DNA of 37,424 nt from Saprospiraceae bacterium. Lineage in GTDB: Bacteria; Bacteroidota; Bacteroidia; Chitinophagales; Saprospiraceae. The notes under the pieces are model-generated. The model searched no databases and was not told the origin of the DNA. It saw only the letters and a list, made by a program, of their open reading frames with translations. This document shows positions 2,740 to 7,019 of the stretch, piece after piece; positions within the stretch are counted from its first letter, which is position 1; every line of letters begins with the position of its first letter. The stretch covers positions 1 to 37,424 of the forward strand of contig JAHDFQ010000026.1 of assembly GCA_020628085.1 (NCBI GenBank). Direction: 5' to 3'. The position numbers and the translations under genes are program-made.

Positions 2740-3480
2740 ATGATTAGAGAAGATCGAATTCGACTAAATGAGCGTTTTGCAAAGGTTTTTGGACTTTTGG
2801 AGGAACGTGGTGAGATTGTCAAAAATGATCGAAGCGGAAAAGGGATGGGAGATTTTGCACGTAGAATTTTAGGTAATCGAGCCTACGGACATATTATTCG
2901 TGCTTTTTTAAACCCAGATGATAAGCGCGTCATTGATTATCACCAAGCACGTTCACTTTGTCGAGAATATGGTGTTAATGAAGAATATTTAATTGATGGT
3001 GTAGGTACACCGTTTGGATTTGATCTACCTCGACCAAAACTAAATGATAGTAACTCGGATATGCCTATGCCGCTCGGTAATATTTTGTTTACCACCACAG
3101 AGGCATTTGCAGGTACAGCCGTTGATGTTGGTTCTGCACCCGAAGACTTACAGTTTTTTGCCATTCCTGGTCTGTCTGGAAGTGGACTCGTAGCCTTTCC
3201 CATTAAAGGAAATAGTATGGAACCCGTCATTTTGGACGATGATATAGTCATTTGTAAAGAAATTAGTAGCCTTCGAGATATTCGAGACAATGAAATCTAT
3301 GCCGTTAAAAATAATGGGGCACTTTGGGTGAAATATGTCCAAAAAATATTCGATCGAAAAGGACGTATCCACCGTCTAAAATTGATTTCCGCCAACTATC
3401 TAGAACATGATCCATTCGAGGAAGATGTGAATGAATATACCCGTTTATATAAAGTGATTAGTCGAGTCAATAAGCTATGA
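2740..3480 (+). CDS. LexA/CI-like S24 repressor
   Basis: A 246-residue transcriptional regulator with an N-terminal DNA-binding part (about 1-90, HTH-like with an ARSLCREYGVNEEYL segment) and a C-terminal S24 peptidase domain. The catalytic Ser is S159 in GNSMEP (157-162) and the Lys is K198 in ALWVKYV. An Ala-Gly pair, A124-G125 (EAFAGT), lies 35 residues before the Ser, the same spacing as A84/S119 in E. coli LexA. Self-cleavage upon DNA damage or another signal is therefore plausible. The N-terminal domain is longer and less canonical than in phage CI. Its leader holds a promoter and dyads, suggesting autoregulation. The last two codons and stop (K-L-stop) lie in a 22-bp sequence repeated exactly at the end of the next gene. 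Confidence 0.85.
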   Translation: MIREDRIRLNERFAKVFGLLEERGEIVKNDRSGKGMGDFARRILGNRAYGHIIRAFLNPDDKRVIDYHQARSLCREYGVNEEYLIDGVGTPFGFDLPRPKLNDSNSDMPMPLGNILFTTTEAFAGTAVDVGSAPEDLQFFAIPGLSGSGLVAFPIKGNSMEPVILDDDIVICKEISSLRDIRDNEIYAVKNNGALWVKYVQKIFDRKGRIHRLKLISANYLEHDPFEEDVNEYTRLYKVISRVNKL

Positions 3481-3492
3481 AATGAAAATTAG
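3471..3492 (+). repeat. 22-bp direct repeat, copy 1, over the stop codon of the S24 gene
   Basis: The sequence beginning TAAGCTATGA and ending GAAAATTAG is identical over 22 bp to 4432-4453. It covers the last Lys-Leu codons and the TGA stop of the repressor gene. Flanking bases differ on both sides, so 22 bp is the full exact match. Confidence 0.95.
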
Positions 3493-3586
3493 AATTTATG
3501 AACACTACTTCCTTAACTGAATTTTGCTTTTGATTACAGTATCCTACTAAAAGATTTTTAATTAAACATCCCGAATATTAAATGGT

Positions 3587-4441
3587 ATGACAAAGAAAAA
3601 TATTGAAGTAGATGATAAAGTAATTAGTATTGAGACCAGAAATGATAATGATTATATCTGTCTGACAGATATGATAAGAGGCGATGAGGGTTCAGATCAT
3701 ATTAGAAATTGGATGCGTAATAGAAATACTGTAGAATTTATAGGTCTTTGGGAAACGCTACATAATCCAAATTTTAAAGGTGTCGAATTCGACAGGTTTA
3801 GAAAAGAAGCAGGTTTGAATAGTTTCAATTTGACCCCAAAAAAGTGGATAAATGCTACGAGTGCCATTGGGATTTATTCAAAATCAGGGAGATATGGCGG
3901 TACTTATGCACATAAAGACTTAGCATTTGAATTTGGTTCATGGATAAGTCCTATATTCAAGTTGTTACTTTTAAAGGAATTTCAAAGACTTAAAGAAAAG
4001 GAAAACGATAAATACAATCTTGAATGGAATGTCAAACGTTTATTAGCAAAGACTAATTATATTATACATACTGATGCAATCAAAGATCATATTATTCCTA
4101 CATCTAATTATTCTAAAAATGCTGAATGGTTGTTGTATGCAAAAGAAGCGGATATTTTGAACGTTGCAGTATTCAAGTGTTCTGCAAAAGATTGGAGGAC
4201 TGCAAATTCAGAACATGCGGAGAAAGGTTTAAATATTAGAGATTTTGCCAGTATAAATGAGTTAGTCGTTCTTTCAAATATGGAAAATATAAACGCTGTA
4301 TTGATTGAGCAAGGAAAAAATAAAATTGAAAGAATAAAAGAGTTGAGTCGATTAGCAGAAAAACAATTGCAAACATTAGATGCTGCTAGTATTATCAAGT
4401 CAATAAAAAAGGAAAATAAAACGAATAAAGGTAAGCTATGA
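3587..4441 (+). CDS. KilA-N domain protein
   Basis: A 284-residue protein with the KilA-N module, a DNA-binding domain best known from phages and large DNA viruses. The module covers about residues 20-135. Signature parts visible are YICLTDMIR near 23, W87-x-x-A-T, then GIYSKSGRYGGTYAHKDLAF and GSWISPIFK, ending in a charged EFQRLKEKE helix. Residues 140-284 form a helical C-terminal region (with AEWLLYAKEADILNVAVFKC) of unknown role, rich in Lys at the end. About 11 of 14 arginines use AGA/AGG, while the adjacent S24 gene uses CGN for nearly all. The gene ends in K-L-stop inside the repeat shared with the S24 gene. Similar proteins occur sporadically in Bacteroidota, probably as phage- or island-borne genes; molecular function is unknown. 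Confidence 0.85.
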   Translation: MTKKNIEVDDKVISIETRNDNDYICLTDMIRGDEGSDHIRNWMRNRNTVEFIGLWETLHNPNFKGVEFDRFRKEAGLNSFNLTPKKWINATSAIGIYSKSGRYGGTYAHKDLAFEFGSWISPIFKLLLLKEFQRLKEKENDKYNLEWNVKRLLAKTNYIIHTDAIKDHIIPTSNYSKNAEWLLYAKEADILNVAVFKCSAKDWRTANSEHAEKGLNIRDFASINELVVLSNMENINAVLIEQGKNKIERIKELSRLAEKQLQTLDAASIIKSIKKENKTNKGKL

Positions 4442-4453
4442 AATGAAAATTAG
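4432..4453 (+). repeat. 22-bp direct repeat, copy 2, over the stop codon of the KilA-N gene
   Basis: Exact copy of 3471-3492. It again encodes Lys-Leu-stop, here at the end of the KilA-N gene. Its AATGAAAA (4442-4449) can pair with TTTTCATT at 4486-4493, with GGTA/TACC pairing inside, forming an imperfect hairpin that may end transcription. Confidence 0.95.
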
Positions 4454-4566
4454 GTAGCATAAATAAAAAGATGACTGAAGTTACCTTTTCATTCAAACTA
4501 CCTGCAAAATATTTTTTAATATCCTGCTGTTTTTCCTGAAGATTATTTCTTTGGGAATGATTGACC

Positions 4567-4595
4567 CTCCCGAATGTGTTTATTCGGGAGTTTTT
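4567..4595 (+). terminator. intrinsic terminator after the KilA-N gene
   Basis: CTCCCGAAT (4567-4575) and ATTCGGGAG (4582-4590) form a perfect 9-bp stem with a 6-nt loop, followed at once by TTTTT. It separates the S24/KilA-N unit from the next gene and shows that the next gene must start at ATG 4643, not further upstream. Confidence 0.85.
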
Positions 4596-4642
4596 CCTTT
4601 TATCGTACGCCTTTCTTAATCCTATTTTCGTATCCTTGTGAT

Positions 4643-6151
4643 ATGAATAAATGGTTTGTTTTTTTAGCATCTAAAGCACGTTATTACGCTTACTTTGTCT
4701 TAGGATTAAGCGTAGTACTACGTCTGAAATGGTATGTTGAAAATCGCTCTTTATTTATAGACGAGGCAAATGTTGCCCGAAATATTGCCGAACGTTCTTT
4801 TCCCCAATTATTCCAAAATTTAGATTACGATCAATATGTTCCACCACTGTTTTCGGTGAGTTTAAAGATTTGTGCATCCATATTTGGATATTATGAATGG
4901 GCACTTCGATTAGTTCCGTTATTGAGTAGTTGTATTGCATTGTGCTTGTTGTGGAAATTGGTCAAACGATTTTGTGTAGTCTCCTATATTCGATGGTTTC
5001 CGCTGGTATTGATGGGATTTTCTGTTGTTTTTATACAGTATTCAACGGAAGTTAAACAGTATTCAAGCGATATAGCTTCGGCTTTATTATTGATTTATCT
5101 AGCTACAGATCAGCGATTTGATCTTTTTGATCCTTCACATCGACAAACACGTAATTATGTAATTTGGGCTGTTTTGGGAGCTGTTGTAGTTTGGTTTTCC
5201 ATGCCTTCCGTTTTCTTTTTAGCGGCTATCGGCTCTGCATTCTTTATAAAAGCTATTCAAAAGAATCGCTCCGAATTATTACCCATACTTATAATTGGCG
5301 GTTGTTGGTTGATGAGTTTTGGCTTATATTATCAATTAATTTTGGTCAACGATATTGGTGATCCGAATTTAAAAGGTTATCACGGGAATCACTTCTTTCC
5401 ACTATTCCCATCTTCTCTGGATATTCTGAATCAGCAGTGGCGATTGATACGACGTTTGTTTGCGACTACCTTCGGTGGAACGGCGATTGCTATCATTTTC
5501 GGGATGTTGACAACTGTGTTTGGAGCATTAAATTTATTTAGACGAAATCGTTATTTACTTTGGATATTAACGATACCAATTTTGTTGGTTTTGATTGCTT
5601 CAGGACTGGAATATTACACCCTCATTCAGCGACTAACACTGTTTTTTCTACCTAATTTGATGTTACTCTCGGTGATTGGAACGGCTTTCCTTTTCAAACG
5701 AAGTCCTATTTATGTAAAAGGAATATTGATATTTATCATGTTGATAATTACCATCAATCAGAAAAGTAAAAAATATATTACTCAGCCTTTTCAAATAGAA
5801 GAACTTCGACCATTATTATATACGATGAAAGCAACCTGGAATGCTCCTGATGTACTGTTTGTAGCAGATGGCGGCGTACCAGCTTTTCGTTTTTATAAAG
5901 ATCATTATGCCCAGAAGAATGATTTTAGTTGGTTAAATGATGTCCGTACAATCGAAGGAAAATGGGATCAAAAATCTGATGAACTGATGCTATTATTGGA
6001 AGAAAATAAAGCAGAAAAAGTAGGTTTGCTATTTTCGCATACTTCTACAGAGCAACGTAATAACATGCTTAATAAATTAACAACAAAAAGAACAATTGTA
6101 CAGCATCTAGAAAATGTCGGAACACACTATTATTTATTAGAAATTCCCTAA
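4643..6151 (+). CDS. GT-C fold membrane glycosyltransferase
   Basis: A 502-residue polytopic membrane protein of the GT39/GT83-like group. After the first helix (about 16-30) comes the acidic pair D40-E41 (FIDEANVARNI), the expected catalytic position, and D61-x-D63 with PP at 67-68 (DYDQYVPPLF) fills the usual second motif. Some ten further hydrophobic segments follow, then a soluble tail from about residue 400 (PFQIEELRPLLY onward), probably periplasmic. An open frame extends 23 codons upstream, but that part overlaps the terminator at 4567-4595, so ATG 4643 is chosen. TATCCTTG at 4631-4638 resembles a promoter box with one mismatch and would give almost no leader. It likely moves a sugar from a polyprenyl donor; the acceptor is unknown. 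Confidence 0.78.
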   Translation: MNKWFVFLASKARYYAYFVLGLSVVLRLKWYVENRSLFIDEANVARNIAERSFPQLFQNLDYDQYVPPLFSVSLKICASIFGYYEWALRLVPLLSSCIALCLLWKLVKRFCVVSYIRWFPLVLMGFSVVFIQYSTEVKQYSSDIASALLLIYLATDQRFDLFDPSHRQTRNYVIWAVLGAVVVWFSMPSVFFLAAIGSAFFIKAIQKNRSELLPILIIGGCWLMSFGLYYQLILVNDIGDPNLKGYHGNHFFPLFPSSLDILNQQWRLIRRLFATTFGGTAIAIIFGMLTTVFGALNLFRRNRYLLWILTIPILLVLIASGLEYYTLIQRLTLFFLPNLMLLSVIGTAFLFKRSPIYVKGILIFIMLIITINQKSKKYITQPFQIEELRPLLYTMKATWNAPDVLFVADGGVPAFRFYKDHYAQKNDFSWLNDVRTIEGKWDQKSDELMLLLEENKAEKVGLLFSHTSTEQRNNMLNKLTTKRTIVQHLENVGTHYYLLEIP

Positions 6152-6233: not shown

Positions 6234-7019
6234 ATGAAAGTAGAACAAATAGAAACAGCAATTGAAGGGTTAAGAAATGAATTGACAACACATCCTTTAT
6301 ATTCAAAATTGGAAAGCATCGAAGATATTCAACAATTTATGGAGTATCACGTGTTTGCGGTTTGGGATTTTATGTCTTTATTAAAAGCCTTGCAAATACA
6401 ATTAACGTGTACGACGCTGCCTTGGATTCCTAGAGAAGATGCTTCTTTGGCTCGTTTTATCAACGAAATCGTTCGAGAAGAAGAAAGTGATGTGAATGAG
6501 CTGGGTGAGCCTAAAAGTCATTTTGAAATGTACTTGGAAGCGATGCAACAGGTGGGTGCAAGTACCAGTCAAATGGTACAATTTATACAACATTTACAGA
6601 ATGGTCATTCTATTGAATCGGCGTCAAAAAAGGCTGATGTTCATTCAGAAATTGGTAAATTTATTAATTACACTTTTGAGGTTATTAACAACGGAAAAGC
6701 TCACGAAATAGCAGCGGCATTTACCTTCGGTCGAGAAGATTTGATTCCTGACATGTTTTTAAAAATTATAGAAGGAGCGGAGCGGCACGACAAAACCGTA
6801 TCTTACGATAAATTATCCTATTATTTGAACCGGCATATTGAGTTGGATGGTGACGATCATGGCCCGTTAGCACTTAAAATGATTACGCAGTTGTGTGGCG
6901 ATGATGCTCAAAAATGGGAAGAGGTAATTGACGTTTCTAAAGCTGCACTACAGCACAGGATTTGGTTGTGGGACGCTACTGCAAAAGCGATTGAAGTGAA
7001 TAAAATGGAAATGGTTTAA
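6234..7019 (+). CDS. DUF3050 protein, heme-oxygenase-like fold
   Basis: A 261-residue soluble helical protein that I recognise as DUF3050. The family is thought to share the heme-oxygenase-like helical fold, whose members include di-iron oxidases. Possible metal ligands fall in helices in the right style: E37-x-H39 (MEYHVFAVWDFM), E82-E84 (REEE), H96, then H201 and D208-H209 (NRHIELDGDDHG). A conserved-looking FTFGREDLIP segment is at 163-172. The gene is 82 bp behind the GT-C gene on the same strand, and its stop overlaps the convergent nucleotidyltransferase stop by 4 bp. Substrate and metal content are unknown; a small-molecule oxidase role is only a guess from the fold. Confidence 0.75.
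   Translation: MKVEQIETAIEGLRNELTTHPLYSKLESIEDIQQFMEYHVFAVWDFMSLLKALQIQLTCTTLPWIPREDASLARFINEIVREEESDVNELGEPKSHFEMYLEAMQQVGASTSQMVQFIQHLQNGHSIESASKKADVHSEIGKFINYTFEVINNGKAHEIAAAFTFGREDLIPDMFLKIIEGAERHDKTVSYDKLSYYLNRHIELDGDDHGPLALKMITQLCGDDAQKWEEVIDVSKAALQHRIWLWDATAKAIEVNKMEMV

Follow-up and report, generated by a model that had tools for sequence, protein, structure and literature searches.

Closest described systems and the KilA-N protein

To our knowledge, how a defense protein spares the genetic element that carries it has been answered for few systems, one of which is BstA/aba. BstA is encoded by the Salmonella prophage BTP1. It is reported to have a KilA-N-like N-terminal domain and a separate C-terminal domain, and its gene often lies downstream of a repressor gene. 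The bstA locus is further reported to contain a cognate, variant-specific DNA element, aba, and aba elements spare the element carrying bstA, a defense gene. The subject of the present analysis is a single KilA-N gene located behind the gene of an S24/helix-turn-helix (HTH) regulator in a stretch of 37,424 nucleotides from Saprospiraceae bacterium (assembly GCA_020628085.1, contig JAHDFQ010000026.1, positions 1 to 37,424 of the forward strand), hereafter the window. The KilA-N gene belongs to a candidate defense family and contains a 28-bp palindrome, whose position is conserved and whose arms covary among homologs.

The locus resembles that of BstA in its gene order and its domain layout, and possibly in having a cognate DNA element. 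The S24–KilA-N order is similar to that of BTP1, in which bstA lies behind cI. The Pfam KilA-N domain (PF04383, E 9.8e-23) covers residues 8–137 of the protein, and the C-terminal part is modeled as helical. Private covarying arms, as would be expected of a variant-specific element, are seen here from the sequence alone. No phage genes were recognized by eye around the S24–KilA-N pair in the window.

Up to an E value of 1, the protein matches a sole PADLOC model, PDC-S22 (E 6.7e-121), with residues 1–278 of 284 aligned to positions 1–278 of 281 in the model. PDC-S22 is also matched by a paralog (E 2.1e-61) and by a streptococcal satellite-phage protein (E 4.1e-123), whereas BstA matches its own PADLOC model (E 1.9e-124) and not PDC-S22. 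The PDC-S22 model describes the protein only, and the family itself is a defense candidate. One paper was found that names it, as a candidate type in Streptococcus suis. In the PADLOC paper, no PDC name was returned by a term search.

An AlphaFold2 model built from 31 sequences has a mean predicted local distance difference test (pLDDT) value of 84.8 and a predicted template modeling (pTM) score of 0.51. In this model, the codons of the palindrome span most of a helix (residues 65–74) that is part of the KilA-N domain. The best match among solved structures is DdrC of Deinococcus radiodurans (Foldseek E 1.8e-4), which is superimposable with a VIA Z of 9.7 over 191 residues (root-mean-square deviation 7.0) and of 10.1 over 110 C-terminal residues. 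However, sequence identity is only 11–16%, Z values of 9.7–10.1 are not unusual for helical models, and a shared fold shows no function. The protein also resembles fungal APSES and viral KilA-N proteins, both in its Pfam domain and in the match of its model to the Mbp1 DNA-binding domain (Z 6.8, 80 residues, 2.4 Å). No covarying intragenic site was met for these proteins in literature listings, and a sequence search of solved structures gave five matches (E 0.13 to 0.97).

A covarying palindrome within the KilA-N coding sequence

At the codon position of the palindrome, 107 of 109 genes form at least 10 of the 14 possible Watson–Crick pairs, a level reached at 4 of 1002 control positions within these genes, and the palindrome is perfect (14/14) in 11 of the 109. 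Codon choice at this position is also restricted. The peptide VEFD is encoded by 64 of 81 genes (that of the window and 80 others) and is written GTCGAATTCGAC in 63 of the 64, for which gene-wide codon usage predicts 1%. Since the first homolog set had been collected with peptide patterns that included NFKGVEFD, the palindrome was rechecked in sets obtained by protein comparison alone. It was present, again with at least 10 of 14 pairs, in 27 of 29 genes found by protein search only (29 of 42 protein matches, the other 13 being partial or without a locus). It was likewise present in 13 of 14 phage and plasmid records, which were picked for diversity from 43 matches before the site was inspected. 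Over all sets, the palindrome occurs in 120 of 123 genes, or in 119 of 122 distinct genes, as one gene had entered twice.

The arms themselves are private to each copy. The source genome contains nine KilA-N matches, seven of them at E <1e-37, and the palindrome is found in seven of the nine copies with seven different arms. Sites of the window type (at most two mismatches) occur in this genome in the KilA-N genes of C272, C248, and C58, and as two weak matches. By the criteria applied, three free-standing palindromes of this kind were found in 680 kb of flanking sequence, one of them in a KilA-N relic.

To quantify covariation, 36 diverse 28-mers were picked by eye from the 58 distinct ones. 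Paired cells amount to 93.5%, compared with 67.2% in shuffles; the covariation value is 0.641, compared with 0.160 (standard deviation 0.019); and cells with a double change number 107, compared with 29. Sliding the axis by one base drops pairing to 44–48%. Over 69 distinct 28-mers, 692 of the 759 cells in pairs 2–12 are Watson–Crick, and the 67 mispaired cells comprise 8 G-T, 16 A-C, and 43 other combinations. An RNA helix should favor G-U, yet it is not favored here; thus, the constraint acts on the DNA, and the two arms of the palindrome covary at that level.

When a palindromic sequence keeps its place, varies in its letters among copies, and lies in a gene whose product has a DNA-binding fold, the best reading is a site bound by that product. 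Accordingly, the palindrome is most likely the KilA-N protein's own binding site, and because the arms differ among homologs, protein and site would form a cognate pair. The palindrome is the more remarkable feature of the gene and was not part of the finding of the earlier note, which had been made from the letters of the window and concerned the repeats described below. Searches of an open-licence literature library showed no description of it. In one record, that of Mannheimia phage 3927AP1 (L208:1465-1695), the annotated KilA-N ORF (open reading frame) is short and ends 13 nt past the palindrome (1655–1682). An annotated terminator in this phage (1564–1593) is not the palindrome.

Insertion of the KilA-N gene behind the S24 gene

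The earlier note had described the KilA-N gene as boxed by exact 22-bp repeats over two stop codons. Indeed, the 22-mer occurs twice without a mismatch at a spacing of 961 bp, and the Lys-Leu-TGA inside it forms the end of both the S24 and the KilA-N ORFs (Table 1). Among 30 windows simulated with an order-1 Markov model, direct repeats spaced by 100–5000 bp reached a maximum of 13–19 bp; in the real window, the second-longest is 16 bp, so that the repeat is beyond chance. A scan of the genome sequence (5.0 Mb, 284 contigs, 96.7% complete), allowing up to three mismatches, found these two copies alone and none for the reversed control. Therefore, the 22-mer is not a terminator motif common to many unrelated genes, an alternative that the note itself had raised.

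The S24 protein (Pfam Peptidase_S24 PF00717, E 6.1e-11) was used to compare the locus among 40 genomes, of which 15, including the source genome, have an ortholog at E <1e-60. In none of the 14 other genomes does a KilA-N match lie on the same contig as the ortholog, although some contigs are short. G001, a genome of the same genus whose S24 protein is 89% identical, has no KilA-N gene between S24 and the next gene. Its order is S24, a motif in the 3′ untranslated region (3′UTR), a terminator-like hairpin, a membrane-protein gene, and a nucleotidyltransferase-like gene (named by eye). This order recurs in the window, with a KilA-N gene added after S24 and a gene for 261 residues added before the nucleotidyltransferase-like gene. 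In G002, the 3′UTR motif is kept, and the membrane-protein gene is not within the stretch examined. The motif begins 82 nt after the S24 stop codon in G001, 60 nt in G002, and 78 nt in the window when counted from the stop codon of copy 2. According to these distances and the gene order, the left ancestral flank is the one bearing copy 1, and the right one bears copy 2. The note had also assigned copy 2 to the ancestral flank, on the ground that it alone could form a hairpin with a downstream arm. The case for that hairpin is weak (DNA fold of 4400–4520, z −0.40 relative to shuffles), and the assignment is supported by synteny instead. Relative to G001, the window thus carries a one-gene insertion, and S24 has kept an intact 3′ end.

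Table 1. Positions of the features of the S24–KilA-N locus in the window.
Feature	Position	Strand	Basis or remark
S24/HTH regulator gene, insertion target	2740..3480	+	Pfam; orthologs at E <1e-60 in 14/39 other genomes
22-bp repeat copy 1	3471..3492	.	S24 ORF end + 12 nt
Leader, 94 nt	3493..3586	.	Tentative degraded second copy of the S24 3′UTR
KilA-N gene, PADLOC PDC-S22 candidate defense family, 284 aa	3587..4441	+	Pfam PF04383, PADLOC
28-bp intragenic palindrome, codons 63–72	3774..3801	.	11/14 pairs; position conserved, arms covary in the family
22-bp repeat copy 2	4432..4453	.	KilA-N ORF end + 12 nt
S24 3′UTR motif (T)ATCCTGCTGTTTTT	4520..4537	+	Marks the ancestral downstream flank
Intrinsic-terminator-like hairpin (stem 4567–4590) and T run	4567..4597	+	Now 3′ of KilA-N
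Membrane-protein gene (ORF listed from 4574)	4643..6151	+	Weak PMT_2 match below cut-off; follows S24 in G001

The motif ATCCTGCTGTTTTT is present at 8 of the 14 S24 ortholog loci; it follows S24 in the window and, at most 420 nt behind it, in six relatives (L020, L021, L022, L023, L027, and L032); it is possibly a conserved RNA or regulatory element. In the window and these six relatives, it sits ahead of a hairpin, as judged by eye. Between positions 2500 and 4800, one terminator-like site was found, behind the KilA-N gene (shuffles average 1.1), and a similar hairpin lies 3′ of S24 in G001. Since this single site is 3′ of KilA-N, S24 and KilA-N are probably cotranscribed.

The repeat may extend beyond the exact 22 bp. 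The 94 nt after copy 1 align near-diagonally with the 3′UTR after copy 2, reaching TCCCGAAT of the left arm of the terminator. Under three scoring schemes, this alignment is equaled by 4, 11, and 14 of 1000 shuffles, and it is equaled by 1 of 1491 genomic 94-mers. A free local alignment of the leader was equaled by 10 of 1000 shuffles, and by 59 of 1000 with softer scoring. Comparisons of the leader with the S24 3′UTRs of G001 and G002 were not significant (192 and 613 of 1000 shuffles as high). From these alignments, the 22 bp may represent the portion best preserved from an approximately 90–150-bp duplication of the S24 3′ end, a reading that is held loosely.

Members of the KilA-N gene family are found in Bacteroidota, Firmicutes, and Gammaproteobacteria. 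The nearest relatives of the window gene belong to other genera, probably of the same family: G007/L137 (the same gene, 84–85%), with a frameshift interrupting the G007 copy, and L088 (82%). The next-nearest homologs come from other orders and classes of Bacteroidota and from Balneolales, while genomes of the same genus reach approximately 50% at best. Pairs of related copies reveal the limits of the unit. L101 and L103 share 99.3% identity along 973 nt, a stretch that extends beyond the aligned coding match by 98 nt upstream and 56 nt downstream; outside it, BLAST gives no match. Similar limits are seen for L113/L115, L102/L106, L100/L110, and L088/L137. In these relatives, the KilA-N gene moves as a single-gene unit of approximately 1 kb without a recombinase. 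The same composition, one DNA-binding gene and no recombinase, had been noted for the unit in the window, and KilA-N is indeed the sole gene of this unit. For the C58, C60, and metH copies of the source genome, no comparable empty site was seen in the three genomes of the same genus, where the flanks are separated or have other genes between them.

Regarding the neighbors of the gene, 58 relatives had enough flank, and a same-strand neighbor was found upstream in 44 and downstream in 45. Of 108 neighboring proteins, 89 are encoded on the same strand, and 69 of these were scanned after short ORFs had been dropped by eye. The scan, made without a control set, gave N6 methylase domains in five, ResIII in five, type I specificity domains in four, and RhuM in two; PADLOC agrees on the type I methylases. 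In the satellite phage Javan279, the KilA-N gene lies between an annotated repressor and an integrase, and in Javan97 it lies behind an XRE regulator; the gene upstream is unnamed in Javan625 and in phage EW.

Proposed mechanism and alternatives

Collectively, these observations suggest the following account, to which we give a probability of about one half as a whole. A horizontally spreading single PDC-S22 gene would have entered the chromosomal S24 locus, downstream of the S24 stop codon and upstream of its terminator, and, by a mechanism that we infer, would have duplicated the S24 3′ end (22 bp exactly, perhaps approximately 90–150 bp originally). S24 would keep its stop codon, the second copy would probably supply the final codons and the stop of KilA-N, and KilA-N would end up between S24 and the old S24 terminator, with both genes probably on one transcript. 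The 28-bp palindrome is predicted to be bound, most likely, by a dimer of the KilA-N protein. This cognate pair could distinguish the carrier element from other DNA, in a manner similar to that of BstA/aba, or it could serve autoregulation. By this analogy, a role in self-recognition and defense is proposed, and self-sparing appears more likely than autoregulation, which in turn appears more likely than mutational upkeep. In its strongest form, the proposal is a tentative one: the gene might be a one-gene immune system whose self tag, the address that the protein spares, lies inside the gene of its own reader, is private to each copy, and travels with it. Part of the KilA-N domain (helix 65–74) is encoded by the tag itself, so that tag and reader could change together.

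A palindrome of fixed position and private sequence in a candidate defense family makes self-sparing directly testable, and the covarying arms offer a way to predict which homolog recognizes which site. In addition, the cis-acting site of a mobile gene may reside in the ORF itself; in that case, an insertion little longer than the ORF, like the one in the window, could be complete.

Several observations weigh against this account. BstA has no detectable homology to the KilA-N protein (hhalign probability 0.5 against a single BstA sequence). The aba element consists of 63 bp over the bstA start codon and contains direct repeats, whereas the element here is a palindrome at codons 63–72; a palindrome of comparable score was not found in bstA and the 150 nt upstream of it. 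The window copy is imperfect, and three of the 122 distinct genes lack the palindrome (L012 and L018, i.e., G000 C129 and C236, and L205). Of the five covariation measures, two discriminate less well: double changes occur in 9 pairs versus 7.1 in shuffles (12 of 500 as high), and further pair types number 24 versus 21.8 (91 of 500 as high). A copy of a gene's own palindrome (at least 20 of 28 letters, within 400 nt) occurs upstream of 4 of 55 genes, compared with 16 of 330 for foreign palindromes, i.e., without excess. Mutational processes might by themselves maintain the palindrome. As for mobility, 2 of the 40 listed pairs share long flanks (L135/L136 and L142/L157). Finally, an exact 22 bp is odd beside the rest of a duplication that is only approximately 60% alike, which is why the longer duplication is held loosely, and several homologs have Lys-Lys-Leu-Glu-like tails, so that the terminal Lys-Leu may be native to KilA-N.

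The palindrome might be only an operator through which the KilA-N protein represses its own gene, with no role in distinguishing self from non-self. Such a site would account for the DNA-level covariation and the private arms; besides, window-type sites are confined to KilA-N genes in the source genome, bar the two weak matches, and the modeled KilA-N domain is similar to that with which Mbp1 binds DNA. Yet, codons 63–72 are an odd place for an operator, and autoregulation alone leaves the defense-family score and the restriction-modification neighbors in several genomes unexplained; we therefore regard a mere operator as rather unlikely. Of the candidate operator copies upstream, that of L123 is probably a gene fragment (67-nt match), and that of L160 lies at a short ORF reading VVEFDSFRKK (by eye).

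With respect to the repeat, the earlier note had proposed a cassette possibly moved in trans; on this reading, the 22 bp would be an attachment-site core or a target duplication made by a recombinase encoded elsewhere. The exactness of the repeat, the insertion of one gene, and the KilA-N-free relative agree with this proposal. However, the ends of the unit bear no terminal inverted repeats. Among the eight further KilA-N copies of the genome, C236 has a flanking repeat of 12 bp, and the remaining seven have none of at least that length. Unique flanking repeats around relatives are not clearly enriched (4 of 100 versus 8 of 321 control ORFs, p 0.31), and the GTT ends of units in other genomes are absent from the window copy. 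By the criteria of a transposon or insertion sequence, the unit likewise has no inverted repeat at its ends and, with KilA-N as its only gene, no transposase. The interpretation of the note thus stands as to the one-gene insertion and is not sustained as to an attachment-type or transposon cassette, which is improbable.

A third explanation holds that the palindrome is functionless. Template-switch correction of quasi-palindromes during replication makes both arms change together, and the perfect forms in 11 of 109 genes would fit a quasi-palindrome kept perfect in this way. Such a process would have to be maintained at a single codon position across Bacteroidota, Firmicutes, and Gammaproteobacteria while changing the protein, and other positions of the same genes are nearly never palindromic (4/1002); this explanation is quite doubtful. 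The least credible is an mRNA hairpin (stem 12, loop 4) controlling translation or decay: the central four bases are freer to vary, as in a loop (by eye), but G-U pairs are not above A-C (8 versus 16), which renders it very improbable.

Flanking direct repeats were also considered as a trait of the whole family and were rejected, as a signal that was strong relative to random positions shrank relative to ORF controls from the same loci. All these counts exclude the window, save one. Exact repeats of at least 17 bp flank 7 of 71 loci versus 1 of 355 random positions, and repeats found by BLAST flank 15 of 76 (window included) versus 14 of 243. With the same-locus ORF controls, the values are 7 of 70 versus 9 of 193 (p 0.10) and 11 of 70 versus 11 of 193 (p 0.012), respectively; in a wider set, any flanking repeat was found at 10 of 100 loci versus 12 of 321 control ORFs. 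Three single look-alike cases, on which these statistics do not rest, have the KilA-N gene between longer duplicates: a 151-bp duplicate (96%) containing the start of a gene for 639 residues (L128), an intergenic duplicate of approximately 370 bp (87%; L151), and a 276-column duplicate (76%) in an operon whose genes we take to be MoxR- and DUF58-like (L160). A 23-bp repeat flanking a broken KilA-N copy in G039 was discarded as a dispersed repeat of that genome.

Integron cassettes offer a further comparison. Several Bacteroidales units start with GTT plus four letters and end in the complement, and an imperfect palindrome follows the unit and recurs beside other genes in L100, L104, L108, and L113. 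In contrast, the window copy has no GTT ends (score 0). The seven-letter GTT complement was found at the unit ends of 13 of 77 loci versus 22 of 308 shifted controls, and the fold z values of the imperfect palindromes after Bacteroidales units are modest (−2.4 to +0.9, eight sites). The attC-like palindromes at L100, L104, L108, and L113 suggest, from their letters, putative Bacteroidales cassette arrays carrying the KilA-N gene. A search for RNA families in ten relatives gave a tRNA as the only match. Upstream of the KilA-N unit of L101 (L101:72-1842), ORFs resembling a tyrosine recombinase and an IS91-type transposase were recognized by eye.

Further downstream in the window, the gene for 261 residues (6234–7019), presumably DUF3050-like, lies between the membrane-protein and nucleotidyltransferase-like genes. 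It is not found at the G001 locus; thus, the two neighborhoods differ by a second single gene.

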